Shown: positions 5,375 to 15,016 of the stretch, in pieces
How positions within the stretch are numbered: the stretch's first letter is position 1
How the letters are laid out: each line of letters begins with the position of its first letter
Assembly: GCA_030656215.1 (NCBI GenBank)
Contig: JAUSOD010000010.1
Location: 1 to 64,000 of the forward strand
Reading direction: 5' to 3'
Source of the DNA: Azoarcus sp.
Lineage (GTDB): Bacteria; Pseudomonadota; Gammaproteobacteria; Burkholderiales; Rhodocyclaceae
Length of the DNA stretch: 64,000 nt
Notes under the pieces: model-generated
The model's database searches: none
What the model was told of the DNA's origin: nothing
What the model saw: the letters and a program-made list of their open reading frames with translations, nothing else
Position numbers and translations under genes: made by a program

Positions 5375-5444
5375 CCCGAGTCCCGCTCCATGCGGCTTTG
5401 CGCCAGACCTTTCTCCCTCACCACACCACTGATCGAAACTCATC

Positions 5445-6002
5445 ATGAATAAAATCGGCATATTTTTCGGCACCGAAACCGGCACGACACGGCTGATCGC
5501 AAAGAAGATACACAAGAAGCTGGGCGACGAGATCGCCAGCAAACCGGTCAATGTCAATCGTATTGGCGTGGACGAGATGCTGCAGTACGACGCGCTGATC
5601 CTGGGCACGCCAAGCTACGGCATTGGCGAGATTCCGGGGCGCAGTGCGGGCTGCCTGGAGCCCAACTGGGAGGAGTTTTTTGCCCAGTTCGAGCGTGCGG
5701 ACTTTTCCGGCAAACGCATCGCGCTGTTCGGGCTCGGTGCGCAGGAGCGCTATGCCGACCGCTTCGCCAGCTCGCTGATCCGTTTGTATGAGGTATTCAC
5801 CGGCTTTGGCGCCGAGATCGTCGGCGGCTGGAGTACCGATGGCTACACCTTCGATCACTCCGCCTCCATCATCGACGGACGCTTCGTCGGGCTGGTGATC
5901 GATGCGCGAACGCAGGGCATGTATACCGACGCGCGCATCGATGCCTGGCTGGAACAGGTCAAGCCGCTGCTGCTGGAGAAGGTGAGCGTGGCCGAATCCT
6001 GA
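5445..6002 (+). CDS. nifF: Long-chain flavodoxin, NifF-type
   Basis: KIGIFFGTETGTTRLIAKKI FMN-binding loop, LILGTPSYGIGEIPG, WEEFF, KRIALFGLG, VGGWSTDGYTFDHSASIIDGRFVGLVID. Confidence 0.88.
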   Translation: MNKIGIFFGTETGTTRLIAKKIHKKLGDEIASKPVNVNRIGVDEMLQYDALILGTPSYGIGEIPGRSAGCLEPNWEEFFAQFERADFSGKRIALFGLGAQERYADRFASSLIRLYEVFTGFGAEIVGGWSTDGYTFDHSASIIDGRFVGLVIDARTQGMYTDARIDAWLEQVKPLLLEKVSVAES

Positions 6003-6155
6003 TTCAGGATGCATGTCAGATCGCAGTACGGCCTCCCATGCCGACCTTGCGCGTGAGCCATACCCAACTACCATGAAAGCGAGCGGCGTAAGTCGCTGCA
6101 CTGGATGGCAACACCAAAACGTCGCGATACAGCCTCGAGCCAGGGAGACTTTTTC

Positions 6156-9100
6156 ATGAGCAAGCGCACCGCAGGGACCACCGTCCGTATCCCCGGACGT
6201 CTCCAAGCCGATGAGCCGTTGTGGCTGGCGAGCCAGATACCTGCGGGCTCGCCCCTGTTCGTCAACGCCGGGCCGGCGCGCGCTTTTCGTCTGGGCGGAA
6301 CCGGTGTCCGCGGCAACGCCGCCGATGCCGTCACCGAAGTCATACCCGCCGACGCGCTGGTCGAAATCGAGTTCGAAAGCGGGCTGCGCTTCTGGACCTC
6401 GGGGGATCTGTTGCGCGAGCGCCTGCAGGCCGCCGGCGGCGACACCACGCGCGGGGGATCTGCGGATGGTGCAGGCGGGGCCTGGGACCTGCCGGCCAGT
6501 ATCGCGCCGGTGCCACAGGGCACCCGCGGAGCGGTGGGCAAGCTGGCAATCAAGGCGCTGCGCTGGGTGGGGCTCGATCCGGTGCAGGCAGGCGTGGACA
6601 AGCTCGTCGAGCTGGCGGAAACTCGCTCGGTGCCGCGCGAGGGGCTGTTTCGGGTGGGTGATGACGGGATTGTGGGCGATCCGCTCGATCGGCCGATTCC
6701 GGATGGCGCGCGCGCGCTGATCCTGGTGCATGGCACAGCCTCCAACACCCGCGGCAGTTTCTCCAGGCTGTGGCTGGATCAGCCCAAACAGTGGGCGCGC
6801 CTGCGCGCCTGGTTTGGCGAGCACATCTACGCATTCGATCATTGCACGCTGACCAGAGGCCCGATCGACAACGCACTCATGCTTTCGCGCCTGTTGCCGC
6901 GCAAGGGTGCCGTGCGCTTCCTGACCCATTCGCGCGGTGGGCTGGTGGGCGAGTTGCTGTGTCTCGACCCGGCCGAGATCGACCGCGCAGGGATCGTCGC
7001 CACGCTGGAGGCCGGAAAGCACGGCAACATCGAAGCACAGGCCGCCCGCGAAGGGCAGAAAACGCAATTTTTCGAGCTGATGCGCGAGCTCGAGGCTCGC
7101 CCCGAACTGGAGATCGAAAGCTTCGTCCGCGTCGCCTGTCCGGTCATCGGCACCACGCTGCTGGGGCAGAAGCTGGACCAGTGGTTCTCCTTGCTGGTGC
7201 TGGCTGCGATTGCCGACGAGATGCGGCGCAGCAATAGCCGCGGGCTCCTCACCAGTGCGCTCGGATCGCTCGCCCGCTACGGCCTGGACATGCTGGCCGA
7301 GATCACCGCCGGCATCGTCGCCAGCCGCAAGGAGACGCACCAGCTGCCCGGGCTGGAGGCGCAGATGCCGCAATCGGCGCTGGTGCGCATCCTCAACGGC
7401 AACCCCGGTCGCGGCCAGTTGTTCGTGGTTGCCGGCGACGCCGAACCGTCCGAGCACAAATGGCTCGCGGAGTTGCGCTTCGGGCTGATCGACCGTTATT
7501 TCGAGCATGACCACGATCTGGTGGTGGACACGCGCGCCATGCTCGACGGCCCCATCCGCCCGGGGCGCAAGCTGCTGTTTCGCAGCGGTGCGGACGTCAA
7601 TCATTTCAGCTACTTTGGCAACGACGACAGCGCCGCCGCCATCGCCGCCGCACTGACCGACGGCACCGAGACGCACACCGTGTTTCGCGATTACAGCGGT
7701 GAATGGCCCCTGCCCACGGGCGCCGCACGCGGTCTGTTCGCGCCGCGTCCGCTGGCCGACCCGCCGCTTGAGACCGCGCGCGGCATCGTGCTCCTCGTTC
7801 CCGGCCTGTGCGGTTCCGAGCTGAATGTGGCGGGCCGGGACGTGTGGGCCAATGTGCTGTCGCTGGCCTGGGGCGGATTCGGCAAGACGCTCGCCATCGA
7901 CAATCCCGCGGTGGCGCCGGGCAAACCGCTTGCCGGCAGCTATCTGGCGCTGGCCAATGCCTTGCGCCGCGAAGGCTATGTGGTGCGCATGCACGGCTAC
8001 GACTGGCGCAAATCGGTACTCGCTTCCGCCGACGACCTGGTCACCGCGCTGAACGGGGCGCTGGATGACTCGACCCCGCGCAAGCTGCCGGTGCACGCGG
8101 TGGTGCATTCGATGGGCGGGGTGCTGATTCGCGCCGCCTTTGCCAAGGACAAGGCCTTGTGGCAGCGCTGGAAGGACCAGCCCAGCCCGAGCGCGCGGGT
8201 ACTCATGCTGGGCACGCCCAACCTGGGTTCGCACGCGGTGACCCTGCTCTTTACCGCGCGCGACGGGTTTTTCAGCAAGCTCGCCCTGATTGATCTGCAC
8301 CATACCGAGGCCGAACTTCTGGCGGTTGCCAACCAGTTCCCCGGCGTGCTCGAACTGCTGCCGCGCCATCCGGACGAAAACGGCGCTGACATCCGTGTGT
8401 CCGCTACCTGGGCCGAGTTTCAAAAGGCCGACAAGGGGCGCTGGCCGACGCCACCGGATGGCCCGCTGAGCAAGTCGGCCGAGTTGTGGGATACGCTGCT
8501 CAAGGATGATCCGCTACCCACCCACGAGCGCCTGATCTACCTTGCCGGCACCGCACCTGAGACACCGCTGCGAGCCACCATCGGCGCCGATGGCAAGTTC
8601 CACCTGCTCAAGACGGCCGAGGGCGATGGCCGCGTCACTTGGGCCAGCGGCATTCCGCCGGCCTGCAAGGAGGGCCAGCGCTGCTATTTCATGAACGCCG
8701 TACACGGCGACATGCCCGAGCACGCAGACGCCTACCCGGCACTGCTCGAGCTGTTGCACAAGGGCAGCACCAGCCATCCCGCGTTGTCGCGCCAGCCCGC
8801 CCCGCCGCGCGCGCGCGGTGCGCTCGAGGCCCCCGGCGAGTACCCCCCGCTCGATGCCGCCGACCTCAGCCACTTTCCCTCGCGCGTGGACTTGCTGGCG
8901 GCTGCCACCGGCGCCACGCTGGAGGCAGCGCGGGCCGGGGCTCGTCCGGGTGCGGACGACCGGGCCGCGGTGCGGGTGATTCACGGCGACCTGATCTATG
9001 TCGATTCGCCGGTGCTGGTTGGCCACAAACAGGGCGTGAACAATCTCGAACAGGCGGAATACATCCTCAATCACGCCCTGAACGGGCGCATGCAGCGTCG

Positions 9101-11798
9101 ACTGGATGCAGGCATCTACGCCGGTCCGCTCAAGAGCTTTGCTCTGTTTCCACCCCAGCCCGACGAAAGCTCCGCGGTCGGTGCCATCGTCATCGGCATC
9201 GGCCGCATCGGCGAGCTCTCGCCCGGTCGGCTGGCGGACGGCGTGGCCCGTGCGCTCGCCGCCTACGCCATCACCATGCTCGAGGAGCGCGATCGCCTGC
9301 GGGACAAACACGCTGCCCCGGATGACAGCGGCCAGCCGCTTGAATTGCGGGTGAGCGCCCTGCTGATCGGCGCCGGGGTGGGCGAGATGAGCCTGCGCGA
9401 CTCGGTTGCCGCCATCCTGCGCGGTCACCGCGATGCGCGCGAGCGCCTGGCGGATGCGAAACTCGACACACGGGTCAGGCTGTGCGCGCTCGATTTCGTC
9501 GAACTGCTCGAAGACCGGGCGATCCAGGCGCAGAAGGCGGCACGCGACGCGGTTGCGCTGGATGGCGAGTTGCGGCGGCGCTTCACCGTGGCCGACACCC
9601 TGTCCGCCAACGAAGGGGGCAGGCGCCGCGCCTATGCCGAAGCGGTGGACGGCGAGTGGTCGCGGATTGCGATCAGCGCGGTCCGGATCGCCGACGGCAG
9701 CGGCACCCAATTGCTGTTTGACGCCTATGGCGACCTGGCCCGAACCGAACGGCTGTACAACGGCATTCCGCTTGCAAGCATCGAGCGCTTCACGCGCGAG
9801 CTGATCAGCAAGGAAAGCGATGACGAGGAGGTCGGGCGCACCCTGTTCGAACTGTTGCTGCCGCACTGGTTGAAGGATCAGGCGCCTGACCGGCGGCGCG
9901 CCCAACTGGTGCTGGATGCGGCCGCCGCCGCCATCCCGTGGGAGCTGTTGCGCGACCGCATGGCCGACCGCAGCGACCGTGGTGGCGAGCCCCTGTCAGT
10001 GCGCAGCGGCCTCGTCCGCCAGCTGGCATCCGGGCGCTTCCGCCAGCGTGTACAGCGCGCGGAAGGGCACCACGCGCTGGTGATCGGCGACCCGGACCTG
10101 GGTGCGCTGAGCACGTTCTTCCCGCAGCTTGACGGCGCACGGAGCGAAGCTGCAAGCATCGCCAGGCTGCTCGACGACGGCGGCTACAGCGCGCCCACCG
10201 CCCTGCTCGGGAGCAAGGCCGAGCGGATCCAGATCGCGCTCTACCAGCAGGACTGGCGGATCATGCACCTCTCGGGCCATGGTGTGTACGGCGAGGCCCT
10301 TCCCTCCCTCGGCGGAGATGAAGCCACGGACAGCGCGGTACCGGTCACCGGCATGCTGATCGGCGAGAATAGTCTGCTGACCCCGGCGCACATCGAGCAG
10401 ATGAGGGTGGTGCCCGATTTCGTGTTCATCAATTGCTGTTCACTTGGGCGTATCGACGCCGATGGGGCGGCACTGGACCATAGCCGCCCGGGGAATCCGG
10501 CGCTGGCGGCCAACCTCGCCACGCAGTTGATCGAGATGGGGGTGCGCGGCGTCATCGCGGCCGGCTGGCGGGTGCTCGACGACGCCGCCGAGCTGTTCGC
10601 CACCACCTTCTATGCATGTTTCCTTGACGGCGAAACCTTCGGCGAGTCGGTACTCGCCGCACGCCGCGCAACCTACGACCGCTTCCCGCGCAGCAATACC
10701 TGGGGGGCGTACCAGTGCTACGGCGATCCGGGCCTACTCTTGCCGCGGCCTCCCAGCAGCAGCAGTCGGCGCGTGCGCCCGGTACGCTACGATTTTGTCG
10801 CGCCGCGCGAAGTGCTGGCCGAGCTGGAGCGCCTGTCCCAGCAAACCCGCTACCGCGCGGTGGAGTCGGGCCCCAGTCGGCAGCGCAGCGAGGAGAGCAT
10901 CGATGCCCTCGCCCGACTGTGCGAGCGCCATGGCTGGGGCGTGCGCGGCGATATCCAGGAGGCATTCGGGCGGCTGTGGGGCGAGCTTGGCGACCACGAC
11001 CGGGCCATCGCCAGCTATCGTGCGGCGCAGGGCGCCGGCGATGCCACTGCGTCGCTCAAGACCGCCGAGCAACTGGTCAGCATGCTGGCGCGGCGCGGGA
11101 CCGGACTGCTCGGCGCAGCCGGTGGCGATACTGCGGAGGGCAAGACGCGCGGCAATGCGATGCTTGCCGAGGCGGAAAACCTGATCGACCAGCTGATTGC
11201 GATCGCGCCCAATCTGGAACGTCATTGCCTCAAGGGCAGTATCTGCAAGCGCCGGCTCAAGCTGACGCCCGACAATGAGCTCGACGCCGAACTGCAACGC
11301 ATGGCGACCGCCTACGAGGATGCCGAGCGTTTCGCCACCGAGCCGGGTGGGAGGCTGTACTACCCGGCGCTCAACGTCCTTCAGGCCAGTCTGCTACGCC
11401 AGTTGCTCGGCACCTTGTCGGACAAGGAACTCGTGGCGGCACGCGCACGCATCGAGGCGGTCCGGGCCGAACTCGACCGTCCGGAGTTCGAGATCAAGGA
11501 CATCTGGGATCGGGTCGCTCCGCTCGATCTCACGCTCACCGAACTCCTGTTCGACGCCGCCTGCAACAGCAATAGCCCGCGCGCGCTCGAGGCCGAGTTC
11601 GAGCAGTCGCGGCGCCGGTATGAGGACCTGCTGGCCTACACCTCCCGGCGCGAGCGGGACTCGGTAACGGGCACGCTCGATGCGCTGTCGGCCTTCCTGC
11701 AGCGCCTGCCACCGGGTCGCAAAGGCAGCCATTCGGGGCGGGCACGAACACTGGTCAGCAGCCTCAAGACCCTGGCCGACGCGCTACGCAGCTCGTAG
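6156..11798 (+). CDS. Giant multidomain protein: two alpha/beta-hydrolase domains (PGAP1/LCAT-like) plus M17-N/macro-like segment plus CHAT caspase-like protease plus helical C-terminus
   Basis: LVHGTASNTRGSF...THSRGGLVGELL (Ser codon 6930-6932), HDLVVD and VNHFSYF; second LVPGLCGSELN...VVHSMGGVLIR (Ser codon 8109-8111), GDGRVTW, NAVHGDM; IVIGIGRIGELSPGRLADGVARAL resembling leucyl aminopeptidase N-domain; CHAT MHLSGHGVYG (His 10278-10280) and FVFINCCSLGR (Cys 10434-10439). ATG at 6156 preceded by AGGGAG. Confidence 0.85.
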   Translation: MSKRTAGTTVRIPGRLQADEPLWLASQIPAGSPLFVNAGPARAFRLGGTGVRGNAADAVTEVIPADALVEIEFESGLRFWTSGDLLRERLQAAGGDTTRGGSADGAGGAWDLPASIAPVPQGTRGAVGKLAIKALRWVGLDPVQAGVDKLVELAETRSVPREGLFRVGDDGIVGDPLDRPIPDGARALILVHGTASNTRGSFSRLWLDQPKQWARLRAWFGEHIYAFDHCTLTRGPIDNALMLSRLLPRKGAVRFLTHSRGGLVGELLCLDPAEIDRAGIVATLEAGKHGNIEAQAAREGQKTQFFELMRELEARPELEIESFVRVACPVIGTTLLGQKLDQWFSLLVLAAIADEMRRSNSRGLLTSALGSLARYGLDMLAEITAGIVASRKETHQLPGLEAQMPQSALVRILNGNPGRGQLFVVAGDAEPSEHKWLAELRFGLIDRYFEHDHDLVVDTRAMLDGPIRPGRKLLFRSGADVNHFSYFGNDDSAAAIAAALTDGTETHTVFRDYSGEWPLPTGAARGLFAPRPLADPPLETARGIVLLVPGLCGSELNVAGRDVWANVLSLAWGGFGKTLAIDNPAVAPGKPLAGSYLALANALRREGYVVRMHGYDWRKSVLASADDLVTALNGALDDSTPRKLPVHAVVHSMGGVLIRAAFAKDKALWQRWKDQPSPSARVLMLGTPNLGSHAVTLLFTARDGFFSKLALIDLHHTEAELLAVANQFPGVLELLPRHPDENGADIRVSATWAEFQKADKGRWPTPPDGPLSKSAELWDTLLKDDPLPTHERLIYLAGTAPETPLRATIGADGKFHLLKTAEGDGRVTWASGIPPACKEGQRCYFMNAVHGDMPEHADAYPALLELLHKGSTSHPALSRQPAPPRARGALEAPGEYPPLDAADLSHFPSRVDLLAAATGATLEAARAGARPGADDRAAVRVIHGDLIYVDSPVLVGHKQGVNNLEQAEYILNHALNGRMQRRLDAGIYAGPLKSFALFPPQPDESSAVGAIVIGIGRIGELSPGRLADGVARALAAYAITMLEERDRLRDKHAAPDDSGQPLELRVSALLIGAGVGEMSLRDSVAAILRGHRDARERLADAKLDTRVRLCALDFVELLEDRAIQAQKAARDAVALDGELRRRFTVADTLSANEGGRRRAYAEAVDGEWSRIAISAVRIADGSGTQLLFDAYGDLARTERLYNGIPLASIERFTRELISKESDDEEVGRTLFELLLPHWLKDQAPDRRRAQLVLDAAAAAIPWELLRDRMADRSDRGGEPLSVRSGLVRQLASGRFRQRVQRAEGHHALVIGDPDLGALSTFFPQLDGARSEAASIARLLDDGGYSAPTALLGSKAERIQIALYQQDWRIMHLSGHGVYGEALPSLGGDEATDSAVPVTGMLIGENSLLTPAHIEQMRVVPDFVFINCCSLGRIDADGAALDHSRPGNPALAANLATQLIEMGVRGVIAAGWRVLDDAAELFATTFYACFLDGETFGESVLAARRATYDRFPRSNTWGAYQCYGDPGLLLPRPPSSSSRRVRPVRYDFVAPREVLAELERLSQQTRYRAVESGPSRQRSEESIDALARLCERHGWGVRGDIQEAFGRLWGELGDHDRAIASYRAAQGAGDATASLKTAEQLVSMLARRGTGLLGAAGGDTAEGKTRGNAMLAEAENLIDQLIAIAPNLERHCLKGSICKRRLKLTPDNELDAELQRMATAYEDAERFATEPGGRLYYPALNVLQASLLRQLLGTLSDKELVAARARIEAVRAELDRPEFEIKDIWDRVAPLDLTLTELLFDAACNSNSPRALEAEFEQSRRRYEDLLAYTSRRERDSVTGTLDALSAFLQRLPPGRKGSHSGRARTLVSSLKTLADALRSS

Positions 11799-11866: not shown

Positions 11867-14800
11867 ATGCGAACATGCGGATGCCAAAAAAAACGGGCCA
11901 GAGGTGGTTTCCTCGATTTCTCTTGCACGCGGGCGCCTTGGGCGGGTGTCGAGCACCTCGTCTGCTCGTGCCTGGCGGTGCTCGCGATCGCCTGCCTGCC
12001 TGCGATCGCACTCGCTGCGGAAACCGTTCGCCCACTGGCCGAAACGGCGCCGGCCACAGCCGCAGACGCTCGTGGGGCACCGGAATTGGGCCTGACCGAG
12101 CAGGAAGCCGCCTGGCTCGCCGCGCACCCGGTAATCCGGGTCGGCATCGACCGCGATTTTGCCCCATATGAATGGATAGACGAGGATGGCAAATACGTCG
12201 GCCTGGCCGCCGACTACATGCGGATTCTCGAACAAAAGCTCGGGGTGCGCTTCGAGATCATCGGCAACCAGCCGTGGTCCGTGGTGCTCGACATGGCCAG
12301 GCGCGGCGAACTGGAGCTGCTGTCGTGTGTGGTCAGAACACCGGAGCGGGAACAGTTCCTGATCTTTACCCAACCCTATAAGTCGACCCGGGCGGTGATC
12401 ATCGACCAGGGCCGGGGAGATTTCATCGGTAGCCTGGATCACCTGGCCGGCAAGCGGGTGGCGGTCGAGAAGGGCTACTTCATGCAGGAACTGCTGACGA
12501 ACAATTATCCGCGCATCCGGCTGATGTTGACGGGCAGCACCCAGGAAGCGCTGAAGCTGGTGTTCGACGGCAGCGCGGATGCCTATGTCGGCGACGCCGG
12601 CACCACCAACTACGCGATCAAGCACGAAGGCCTGCTCACGCTACGTTTTTCCGGCCTGACCGAGTATTTCAGCCAGCACAGTGTGGCGATCGCCCGCGAT
12701 CACCCGGAACTGGCATCGATCATCACCAAGGCCATGGCCAGCATCCCTGCGGACGAAGCCGATGCCATCTTCAATCGCTGGCTCGGGCTGCGGATCGAAC
12801 AGGGGGTCAAGACCGAGACCCTGGTCGGCTACGGTGTGGCCGTACTGGGTTTCTTTCTGTTGTTTGCCTACTGGGTGCTCCGCCTGCGGCGGGAGATCGG
12901 CGTCCGCAAGTTGGCCGAACTGCACCAGCAGCACCACAACCTGGTGCTGCAGATGCTGGCCGAAAAGGCACCGCTGACGAGTGTGCTGGACGCCATTGCG
13001 GCCAACGTGGAAACGCTCAATCCGAACATGTCGTGCCGTATCGGGCTGGTGGATGAGGGCGGCCGGTCACCGTGGCCGCTGGCCATCGACCCCGTCCGCC
13101 GTCTGGGCCCCGGCACCTGCTGGTCGCAGCCGATCCGCTCTGGGCAGGGCGGCTTGCTCGGCGCATTTCTCATCGAACATCGGCATCCACGCCCGCCCTC
13201 GGCCGTCGACCTGCAACTGATCGAGGACGAGGCGCGCCTTGCCGCCCTCGCCATCGAAAAATCCGCGGACGAAGCCCGCCTGCAACTTGCCGCCAGCGTG
13301 TTCACCCATGCCCGCGAAGGCATCATGATTACCGACCCCGAAGGCACCATCGTCGAGATCAACGACACCTTTACCCATATCACCGGCTACAGCCGCGAAG
13401 AAGCCGTCGGCCAGAATCCGCGGCTGCTGAAATCCGGTCGTCACGCGCCGGAGTTCTACGCCGCGATGTGGGAGCAGCTGAAAACCAGCGGCCACTGGGC
13501 CGGGGAAATATGGAACCGGCGCAAGGACGACGAGGTTTTCGCCGATCTTCGCACCATCAGCGCCGTGCGCGACGCAGCCGGAAGGACGCAGAACTACGTC
13601 GCCCTGTTCACCGACATCACCCCGATGAAGGAACATCAGCAGCAGCTCGAACACATGGCCCATTTCGACGCCCTGACCGGCCTCCCCAACCGGGTGCTGC
13701 TGGCCGACCGGCTGCAGCAGGCGATGATCAAGAGCCGGCGGCGCGACCAGTCGCTGGCAGTGGCCTATCTCGATCTCGACGGTTTCAAGGCGGTCAATGA
13801 CCGCTACGGCCATCATGTCGGCGACGAACTGCTGATCATCATCTCGCGCCGGATGAAGGAGGTGCTGCGCGATGGCGATACGCTGGCGCGCATCGGCGGC
13901 GACGAGTTCGTAGTGGTGCTGTTCGATCTCGAGCAGCCGCAGGACTGGAAGCCGGTGATCGCCCGCCTGCTGCAGGCTGCCGCCGATCCGGCGACGGTGG
14001 GCGATGCCGTGGTGCAGGTCACGGTCAGCATCGGGGTGACCCTCTATCCGCAGGACGGCGCCGACGCCGACCAGTTGATGCGCCACGCCGACCAGGCCAT
14101 GTACGGTGCGAAGCAGGAGGGCAAGAACCGATATCACCTGTTTGACGTCGATCACGACGCCGCATTGCAGAGCTGGCGCGACAGTCTCGAGCACATCTGC
14201 CGCGCGCTGATTCGGGGCGAGTTCGTGCTGTACTACCAGCCCAAGGTCAACATGAAGACGGGTGCGGTGATCGGCGCCGAAGCCCTGATCCGCTGGCAGC
14301 ACCCCGAGCGCGGTCTGCTGGCGCCGGCGGCCTTTCTGCCGGTTATCGAGAAGCACCCGGTAGGGGTGGATCTGGGCGAATGGGTGATCGACAGCGCACT
14401 GGCGCAGATGAGCGCATGGCATGCGGTCGGCGTCGATATCGCGGTCAGCGTGAACGTCGCCGCCCGCCAGTTGCAGATGGCCGACTTCGTGCCGCGTCTC
14501 GAAGCGCTGCTGGCCGCCCACCCCGACGTTGAGCCGCGCTGCCTCGAACTGGAAGTGCTGGAAACCAGTGCGATGGACGACATGGCGCATGTGTCGGCGG
14601 TGATGCACGCATGCCACGCGCTTGGCGTCCGGTTTGCGCTGGACGACTTCGGCACCGGCTACTCCTCACTCACCTATCTCAAGCGCCTGCCAGCCGACAT
14701 CCTCAAGATCGACCAGAGCTTCGTGCGCGACATGCTCGACGACCCCGACGATCTGGCTATCATCGAGGGCGTGATCGGGCTGGCCACGGCTTTTCGGCGA

Positions 14801-15016
14801 GAAGTGATTGCCGAAGGGGTGGAAACGGTGGCACACGGCGAGCTGTTGCTTGCGCTCGGCTGTGACCTGGCGCAGGGCTACGGCATCGCCCGGCCGATGC
14901 CTGCCGCGGAACTGCCCGGTTGGATCGCGACCTGGCACCCGGATGGCGCATGGACGGCGTGGAGTCAGCACCCACCGAAGCGTGCCGAACCGGTGCTGGA
15001 GGGTGCTTCGGTGTAG
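11867..15016 (+). CDS. Periplasmic SBP_bac_3 sensor - PAS - GGDEF - EAL protein
   Basis: TQEAAWLAAHPVIRVGIDRDFAPYEWIDEDGKYVGLAADY; PAS TDPEGTIVEINDTFTHITGYSREEAVGQNPRLLKSG; RIGGDEFVVVLF; GAEALIRWQHPERG; DDFGTGYSSLTYLKRLPADILKIDQSFV. Confidence 0.93.
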   Translation: MRTCGCQKKRARGGFLDFSCTRAPWAGVEHLVCSCLAVLAIACLPAIALAAETVRPLAETAPATAADARGAPELGLTEQEAAWLAAHPVIRVGIDRDFAPYEWIDEDGKYVGLAADYMRILEQKLGVRFEIIGNQPWSVVLDMARRGELELLSCVVRTPEREQFLIFTQPYKSTRAVIIDQGRGDFIGSLDHLAGKRVAVEKGYFMQELLTNNYPRIRLMLTGSTQEALKLVFDGSADAYVGDAGTTNYAIKHEGLLTLRFSGLTEYFSQHSVAIARDHPELASIITKAMASIPADEADAIFNRWLGLRIEQGVKTETLVGYGVAVLGFFLLFAYWVLRLRREIGVRKLAELHQQHHNLVLQMLAEKAPLTSVLDAIAANVETLNPNMSCRIGLVDEGGRSPWPLAIDPVRRLGPGTCWSQPIRSGQGGLLGAFLIEHRHPRPPSAVDLQLIEDEARLAALAIEKSADEARLQLAASVFTHAREGIMITDPEGTIVEINDTFTHITGYSREEAVGQNPRLLKSGRHAPEFYAAMWEQLKTSGHWAGEIWNRRKDDEVFADLRTISAVRDAAGRTQNYVALFTDITPMKEHQQQLEHMAHFDALTGLPNRVLLADRLQQAMIKSRRRDQSLAVAYLDLDGFKAVNDRYGHHVGDELLIIISRRMKEVLRDGDTLARIGGDEFVVVLFDLEQPQDWKPVIARLLQAAADPATVGDAVVQVTVSIGVTLYPQDGADADQLMRHADQAMYGAKQEGKNRYHLFDVDHDAALQSWRDSLEHICRALIRGEFVLYYQPKVNMKTGAVIGAEALIRWQHPERGLLAPAAFLPVIEKHPVGVDLGEWVIDSALAQMSAWHAVGVDIAVSVNVAARQLQMADFVPRLEALLAAHPDVEPRCLELEVLETSAMDDMAHVSAVMHACHALGVRFALDDFGTGYSSLTYLKRLPADILKIDQSFVRDMLDDPDDLAIIEGVIGLATAFRREVIAEGVETVAHGELLLALGCDLAQGYGIARPMPAAELPGWIATWHPDGAWTAWSQHPPKRAEPVLEGASV

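Follow-up and report, generated by a model that had tools for sequence, protein, structure and literature searches.

The 64,000-nucleotide stretch of Azoarcus sp. DNA analysed here (the window) carries one uninterrupted open reading frame at positions 6156-11798 of the plus strand, which encodes a protein of 1,880 amino acids. An earlier note on this DNA had claimed such a frame and had read it as two serine hydrolases, an aminopeptidase-N/macro-like segment, a CHAT protease and a helical C-terminus fused in one polypeptide. The questions raised by this locus are whether so large a fusion is a genuine protein, and what such a protein would do for the bacteria that encode it.

Domain architecture and active sites

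Translation was taken to start at 6156, because a ribosome-binding-like stretch (AGGGAG) precedes this codon; starting from the in-frame ATG at 6105 would yield 1,897 amino acids. The reading frame, Pfam matches (counted above curated cut-offs) and conservation among 89 aligned full-length homologues define a DUF7379 hydrolase, an LCAT-like lipase, a Peptidase_M17_N/macro-fold domain, a CHAT domain and a TPR-S domain, in this order. They are preceded by a beta-rich N-terminal region (amino acids 1-185; 6156-6710, plus strand, as are all domains below), delimited from the sequence and the AlphaFold2 model, and no signal peptide is apparent by eye at the N-terminus. AlphaFold2 models built from 76-row alignments were confident for amino acids 1-900 (mean pLDDT 85.7, pTM 0.74) and for amino acids 880-1880 (mean pLDDT 87.3, pTM 0.80). 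A sequence search of the PDB with the whole protein found nothing, and neither NCBIfam nor PADLOC holds a model for it.

Alpha/beta hydrolase 1 (DUF7379) was placed at amino acids 186-500 (6711-7655) by Pfam, conservation and the AlphaFold2 model. Its Pfam match covers amino acids 188-274, and S259, D454 and H483 are each present in 89 of 89 homologues. Alpha/beta hydrolase 2, which resembles LCAT and lysosomal phospholipase A2 (LPLA2), was placed at amino acids 540-880 (7773-8795) by Pfam, Foldseek and conservation. The LCAT Pfam match (amino acids 599-741, E = 1.5e-5) is over the cut-off. D824 and H850 are found in all 89 homologues and S652 in 86, the others having cysteine (two) or alanine (one). 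When the model of amino acids 1-900 was compared with the PDB by Foldseek, lysosomal phospholipase A2 and LCAT were found, with 4x92 as the best match (E = 1.1e-8); the bacterial lipase Tle4 (4r1d) was also among the LCAT-type matches. By alignment and model, hydrolase 2 has the alpha/beta-hydrolase fold with the Ser-Asp-His of LCAT/LPLA2-type lipases, and phospholipase or acyltransferase activity is predicted. It shares its fold and the order of its catalytic motifs with LCAT and LPLA2 (4x92, 4x96), but unlike them it is a single domain within a much larger protein that is apparently cytoplasmic. Thus, two serine-hydrolase boxes, each with its own Asp and His, had been recognized correctly, since all six residues are kept in 86-89 of the 89 homologues. 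The nucleophile numbered 'Ser930x' in the earlier note was misplaced; there is none at that position, the nucleophiles being S259 and S652.

The Peptidase_M17_N/macro-fold domain, with a macro-like glycine loop, spans amino acids 938-1210 (8967-9785) and was located by Foldseek and profile searches. Peptidase_M17_N (PF02789) matches 47 of 73 homologous segments, and the segment of the window copy gave no Pfam match when searched alone. A profile of the segment finds the M17 aminopeptidase 3jru_B (E = 8.9e-5), and Foldseek with the model of amino acids 880-1880 returned leucine aminopeptidase N-domains and macro domains (7y1s, 2dx6). The PF02789 and Foldseek matches confirm the previous assignment of this segment. 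The family consensus of the glycine loop, GTGxGG, aligns only weakly with the macro protein 2dx6 (E = 0.3), and the loop is degenerate in the window copy (GAGVGE).

The CHAT domain (amino acids 1225-1524; 9828-10727) was identified by Pfam (E = 2.8e-27), conservation and Foldseek. H1375 and C1428 are invariant in 89 of 89 homologues, as the proposal of a CHAT core with His and Cys would have it, and the neighbouring C1427 is present in 88. Structural matches to this part of the amino acid 880-1880 model include Craspase TPR-CHAT (8d9f), the SAVED-CHAT filament (8tl0) and separase. Sequence and model together place the domain in the CHAT fold with a catalytic His and Cys, and protease activity is predicted.

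The remainder of the protein, amino acids 1550-1880 (10803-11795), is a TPR superhelix with a TPR-S core at 10992-11384 and the fold of the ASK1 central regulatory region, as judged by Pfam, the AlphaFold2 model and Foldseek. TPR-S (PF20308) matches amino acids 1613-1743 (E = 4.5e-9; 37.3 bits against a cut-off of 27.6), and E1638, R1646, R1689, K1698 and N1740 are conserved in the family. The superhelix resembles the ASK1 (MAP3K5) central regulatory region 5ulm in Foldseek (TMt 0.51). Both the Pfam match and the fold support this likeness, whereas TPR-S is linked to a CHAT domain and lipases in the giant protein and to a kinase in ASK1. The C-terminus is helical as described before, but that plain label does not hold, since this is a named sensor domain. 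In a study by Burroughs and Aravind (2020), TPR-S was reportedly predicted to be a sensor of NAD-derived signals, from which the ASK1 scaffold later evolved.

High-GC DNA can yield an overlong frame with motif look-alikes, and spurious long frames do occur in the window, for example a 1001-aa antisense frame at 5418-8423. Such an artefact was rejected here on the conservation of the active sites across 89 homologues. With those residues near-invariant, Pfam matches over the cut-offs and confident models, its probability is practically nil. Chance look-alikes are excluded because the active-site residues are kept down to about 30% identity and in several phyla. In the alignment the active sites are conserved together, and the models confidently predict the expected folds; the earlier reading thus survives on both points named against it, co-conservation and, at the level of folds, predicted structure.

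Distribution of the family and its neighbouring genes

The giant lipase-protease is a real and widespread bacterial protein family. Among related genomes, 13 of 61 encode a match, one of the 13 being the genome of the window, and a scan of one assembly per species found at least 570 relatives in several phyla. The 80 relatives retained come from Proteobacteria, Desulfobacterota, Nitrospirota, Acidobacteriota, Bacteroidota and Anaerolineales. Relatives occur on eight plasmids, and where annotated they are named just 'CHAT domain-containing protein'; none of the phage records searched encodes one. One copy, on an Azotobacter plasmid, adjoins type I restriction-modification and Fic genes. On two Paracoccus plasmids (L127:3699-6944 and L128:3184-6468), a gene for a protein of about 1,090 amino acids precedes the giant gene with a 4 bp overlap or a 37 bp gap, and one of these proteins carries an SBP_bac_3 domain.

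Neighbouring genes were surveyed at 91 loci, where adjacent means directly next door on the same strand. A small C14 caspase gene is adjacent at 30 loci and a TIR gene at 17. Three relatives carry a TIR domain as a C-terminal extension of the giant protein itself (L032 and L036 by Pfam, L044 by an HMM built during this work). Altogether, a caspase or TIR is adjacent or fused at 45 of the 91 loci. Among picked genes only, 38 of the 103 that are adjacent encode a caspase or TIR, whereas 8 of the 699 lying beyond 3 kb do so (Fisher p about 1.7e-29, with kinship among loci ignored). On a quick FastTree phylogeny, in which some long branches are insecure and changes were counted without direction, the adjacent-caspase state requires 11 changes and the adjacent-TIR state 12. 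The pattern is therefore not accounted for by a linkage that arose once and was inherited. Pfam confirmed TIR or caspase in the representatives checked. The consensus of the partner caspases keeps SGHG around the His and DsCHSG around the Cys, and most TIR domains have a glutamate at the expected position. In Azotobacter L056, which belongs to the window's subclade, the adjacent TIR protein matches Thoeris ThsB profiles (E = 3.7e-35).

The adjacent position is variable. Clostripain, phospholipase D, muramidase, peptidoglycan-binding proteins, patatin, astacin and a transglutaminase elicitor were found there, and second TPR-S proteins are encoded next to the giant gene in some relatives. At 15 loci (L059:15331-15987 and 14 others) an M15-type peptidase gene overlaps the stop codon of the giant gene by a few bp. 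Complete operons include a TIR gene with the giant gene in Methyloversatilis (L055), and caspase, giant and M15 genes in Dechloromonas (L103). Not every adjacent gene is part of a system, because some of them serve ordinary metabolism or transport. Since the varying neighbour is often of an effector kind (caspase, clostripain, astacin, patatin, phospholipase D, wall hydrolases, transglutaminase), the giant protein might be a constant sensor or threshold component whose CHAT domain mainly activates the adjacent effector, the hydrolases being regulatory or signal-processing. This would resemble the organization of EACC systems, in which a constant component is combined with variable effectors (PMC8195603, PMC7159879). 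Yet many copies, including the one in the window, are single genes without an adjacent effector, so the giant protein has to be capable of working by itself or in trans. In addition, both hydrolase triads are conserved in the alignment, which favours catalysis and makes a purely sensory role unlikely.

TIR, phospholipase D and wall hydrolases are also known as type VI effectors. Together with the Tle4 match of hydrolase 2, they suggest another reading, namely a secreted interbacterial lipase effector, Tle-like, with accessory domains. Among the adjacent genes run through Pfam, however, neither VgrG, PAAR or Hcp nor an immunity-gene pattern was recognized. The protein also shows no signal peptide by eye, and the combination of CHAT with TPR-S is typical of regulated proteases in the cytoplasm. 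Judged from the adjacent genes scanned and from the architecture, export of this kind is highly improbable.

Several further features were observed near the giant genes. A protein of about 517 amino acids without a Pfam match follows the M15 peptidase gene at several loci. A domain of about 190 amino acids stands alone near the giant gene at L014:13673-14236, L043:1634-2224 and L050:7448-8038, and is fused after TPR-S at the C-termini of L016:4326-6407, L064:7013-8977, L070:6879-8858 and L081:7835-9868. Pfam matches neither the L014 copy nor that of L043; by eye, the motif GACGGD..FAEACLxRG looks like that of a candidate SLOG nucleotide sensor. Directly downstream of the TIR-fused giant gene of L032, a STAND-like protein with TIR, AAA and HEAT/TPR regions is encoded (L032:16481-19816). 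Upstream of the TIR-linked giant gene in Azotobacter chroococcum DSM 2286 (L056:1135-9412) lie a caspase gene and a second reading frame of about 1,830 amino acids; this frame is a putative paralogue of the giant gene, as its DNA is in part similar to the window gene.

The copy in the window and its genome

The window copy is solitary. Upstream are genes for a GlpC-like protein and a flavodoxin, and directly downstream (11867-15016) is a gene for a hybrid sensor with SBP_bac_3, PAS, GGDEF and EAL domains by Pfam. Neither the window copy nor most of its 10-member subclade has an adjacent TIR or caspase gene. The earlier statement that no substrate gene lies next door is therefore true of the window, and about one-third of the relatives do have a small caspase gene there. 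The window copy itself is not in a defence island. Elsewhere in the window, at 513-2093, a PHB-depolymerase-type esterase with an Ig-like domain is encoded near a tRNA-Leu gene (251-335).

The lipase domains that dominate the protein, and the ordinary metabolic surroundings of some copies, including the one in the window, would also suit a protein that regulates the turnover of lipids or storage polymers, in housekeeping or under stress, with CHAT proteolysis controlling the lipase and phage playing no role. Several observations argue against it. The distribution among related genomes is patchy, copies are found on plasmids, and TIR and caspase genes are linked to the family. The nearest relatives, in Thauera, a Limnobacter metagenome-assembled genome and Azotobacter (L056), are 67-71% identical to the window copy, and no flanking DNA is common to them and the window. 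Moreover, the matching region of a congeneric genome (L118) passes straight from the GlpC-like and flavodoxin genes to a GGDEF/EAL gene, and the giant gene is missing there. This spot is likely an empty site, likely rather than certain because the GGDEF/EAL proteins are just 41% identical over 580 amino acids. A housekeeping role is thus quite improbable. No repeats flanking the giant gene were found in the window.

In the window's genome, seven TIR matches lie away from the giant gene, and a search for C14 caspase found none. A relative of the ThsB-like TIR protein of L056 was not found either, the seven TIR matches included, in a search run without a positive control. TIR proteins encoded elsewhere in this genome might act on the giant protein in trans. 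On another contig of the genome (L123:5885-9114), a gene for a second TPR-S protein, of 704 amino acids, is convergent with a gene for a 336-aa TIR protein, one of the seven TIR matches.

Relation to known systems and proposed function

Several known systems share parts of this organization. SAVED-CHAT (8tl0) likewise joins a CHAT protease to a putative nucleotide-sensing domain. It also has a caspase partner protein, recalling the caspases encoded beside the giant gene. In contrast, neither Pfam nor PADLOC finds SAVED in the giant protein, and the adjacent genes inspected showed no cyclic oligonucleotide synthase. Within type III CRISPR signalling, SAVED-CHAT serves as a protease (PMC11417357). 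Craspase (TPR-CHAT, Csx29; 8d9f, 7y8t) shares the TPR and CHAT arrangement found by Foldseek, but the TPR region of the giant protein is C-terminal and of the TPR-S/ASK1 type, and lipase domains are added. The scan of adjacent genes brought up no Cas7-11/gRAMP, Cas10 or SAVED-associated gene.

TIR enzymes produce signals derived from NAD. In type IV Thoeris, a caspase-like protease is switched on by a signal of this kind (PMC12847820); the signal is N7-cADPR according to Rousset et al. (2025), as cited in that paper. A TIR gene beside a caspase-fold protease effector is likewise found in giant loci, and the TIR protein of Azotobacter L056 is ThsB-like. The giant protein differs in that its protease is a CHAT domain within 1,880 amino acids that also hold TPR-S, a macro-fold domain and two hydrolases; the small C14 caspase has a gene of its own, and many copies have no adjacent TIR. 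An adjacent ThsB TIR gene is absent from the window by Pfam and by our own HMM, unlike in L056. The architecture also differs from the known ThsA effector types (SIR2-SLOG, TM-macro, caspase-like), with no PADLOC match. VMAP, EACC1 and EACC2 systems (PMC7159879, PMC8195603) resemble the giant loci in pairing caspase with alpha/beta-hydrolase and a constant component with variable effectors; in VMAP conflict systems, every caspase domain comes with an alpha/beta-hydrolase gene next to it (PMC7159879). The giant protein fuses such parts in one polypeptide, however, and no MoxR-vWA, EAD or EACC components were detected in the Pfam scans made.

The giant protein was not assigned to Thoeris, Craspase or SAVED-CHAT because their defining partners were sought and not found for the window copy. 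The literature searched on TPR-S, on CHAT with Thoeris and on CHAT with lipase does not describe the architecture, an earlier mention in the TPR-S paper (J Bact 2020) being possible. The protein resembles known signal-gated proteases, that is, CHAT/TPR-S conflict effectors, and there is a fair chance that it belongs to an undescribed type of system.

Judged from its domains and neighbours, the gene probably encodes a signal-gated conflict effector of the programmed-death or anti-phage type. It is the TIR and caspase context, together with the ASK1-like TPR-S sensor, that raises what had been a candidate to a probable conflict effector. The following course is inferred, at every step, from domains, neighbours and the cited precedents. 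An upstream sensor, a TIR protein in many relatives, would make an NAD-derived nucleotide signal upon infection or damage. This signal would be recognized by the C-terminal TPR-S superhelix, possibly together with the macro-fold domain, and recognition would free the CHAT protease. CHAT would then cleave a partner zymogen encoded next door (mostly a small caspase, sometimes clostripain or astacin), the giant protein itself, or both. Once cleavage has occurred, membrane lipids would be open to attack by both alpha/beta hydrolases (a phospholipase A/LCAT fold is seen at least in the second), and the outcome would be cell death, growth arrest or dormancy. The previously suggested coupling of lipid or ester hydrolysis to CHAT in a single polypeptide, in the manner of abortive infection, is consistent with the co-conserved active sites (89 homologues) and the confident folds, but the activity itself is a prediction.

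More tentatively, these loci may represent an undescribed type of immune system. In it, a TIR-derived nucleotide signal, or an equivalent supplied in trans, would act on a single lipase-lipase-macro-CHAT-TPR-S executioner of 1,800-2,150 amino acids with an ASK1-like sensor, which would combine a CHAT-to-caspase cascade with phospholipid attack. If the linkage and the ASK1-type sensor hold, bacterial TIR signalling, caspase-like cascades and membrane lipolysis would be tied together in one molecule. The family would then also provide a bacterial counterpart of the ASK1 regulatory region joined directly to executioner enzymes.
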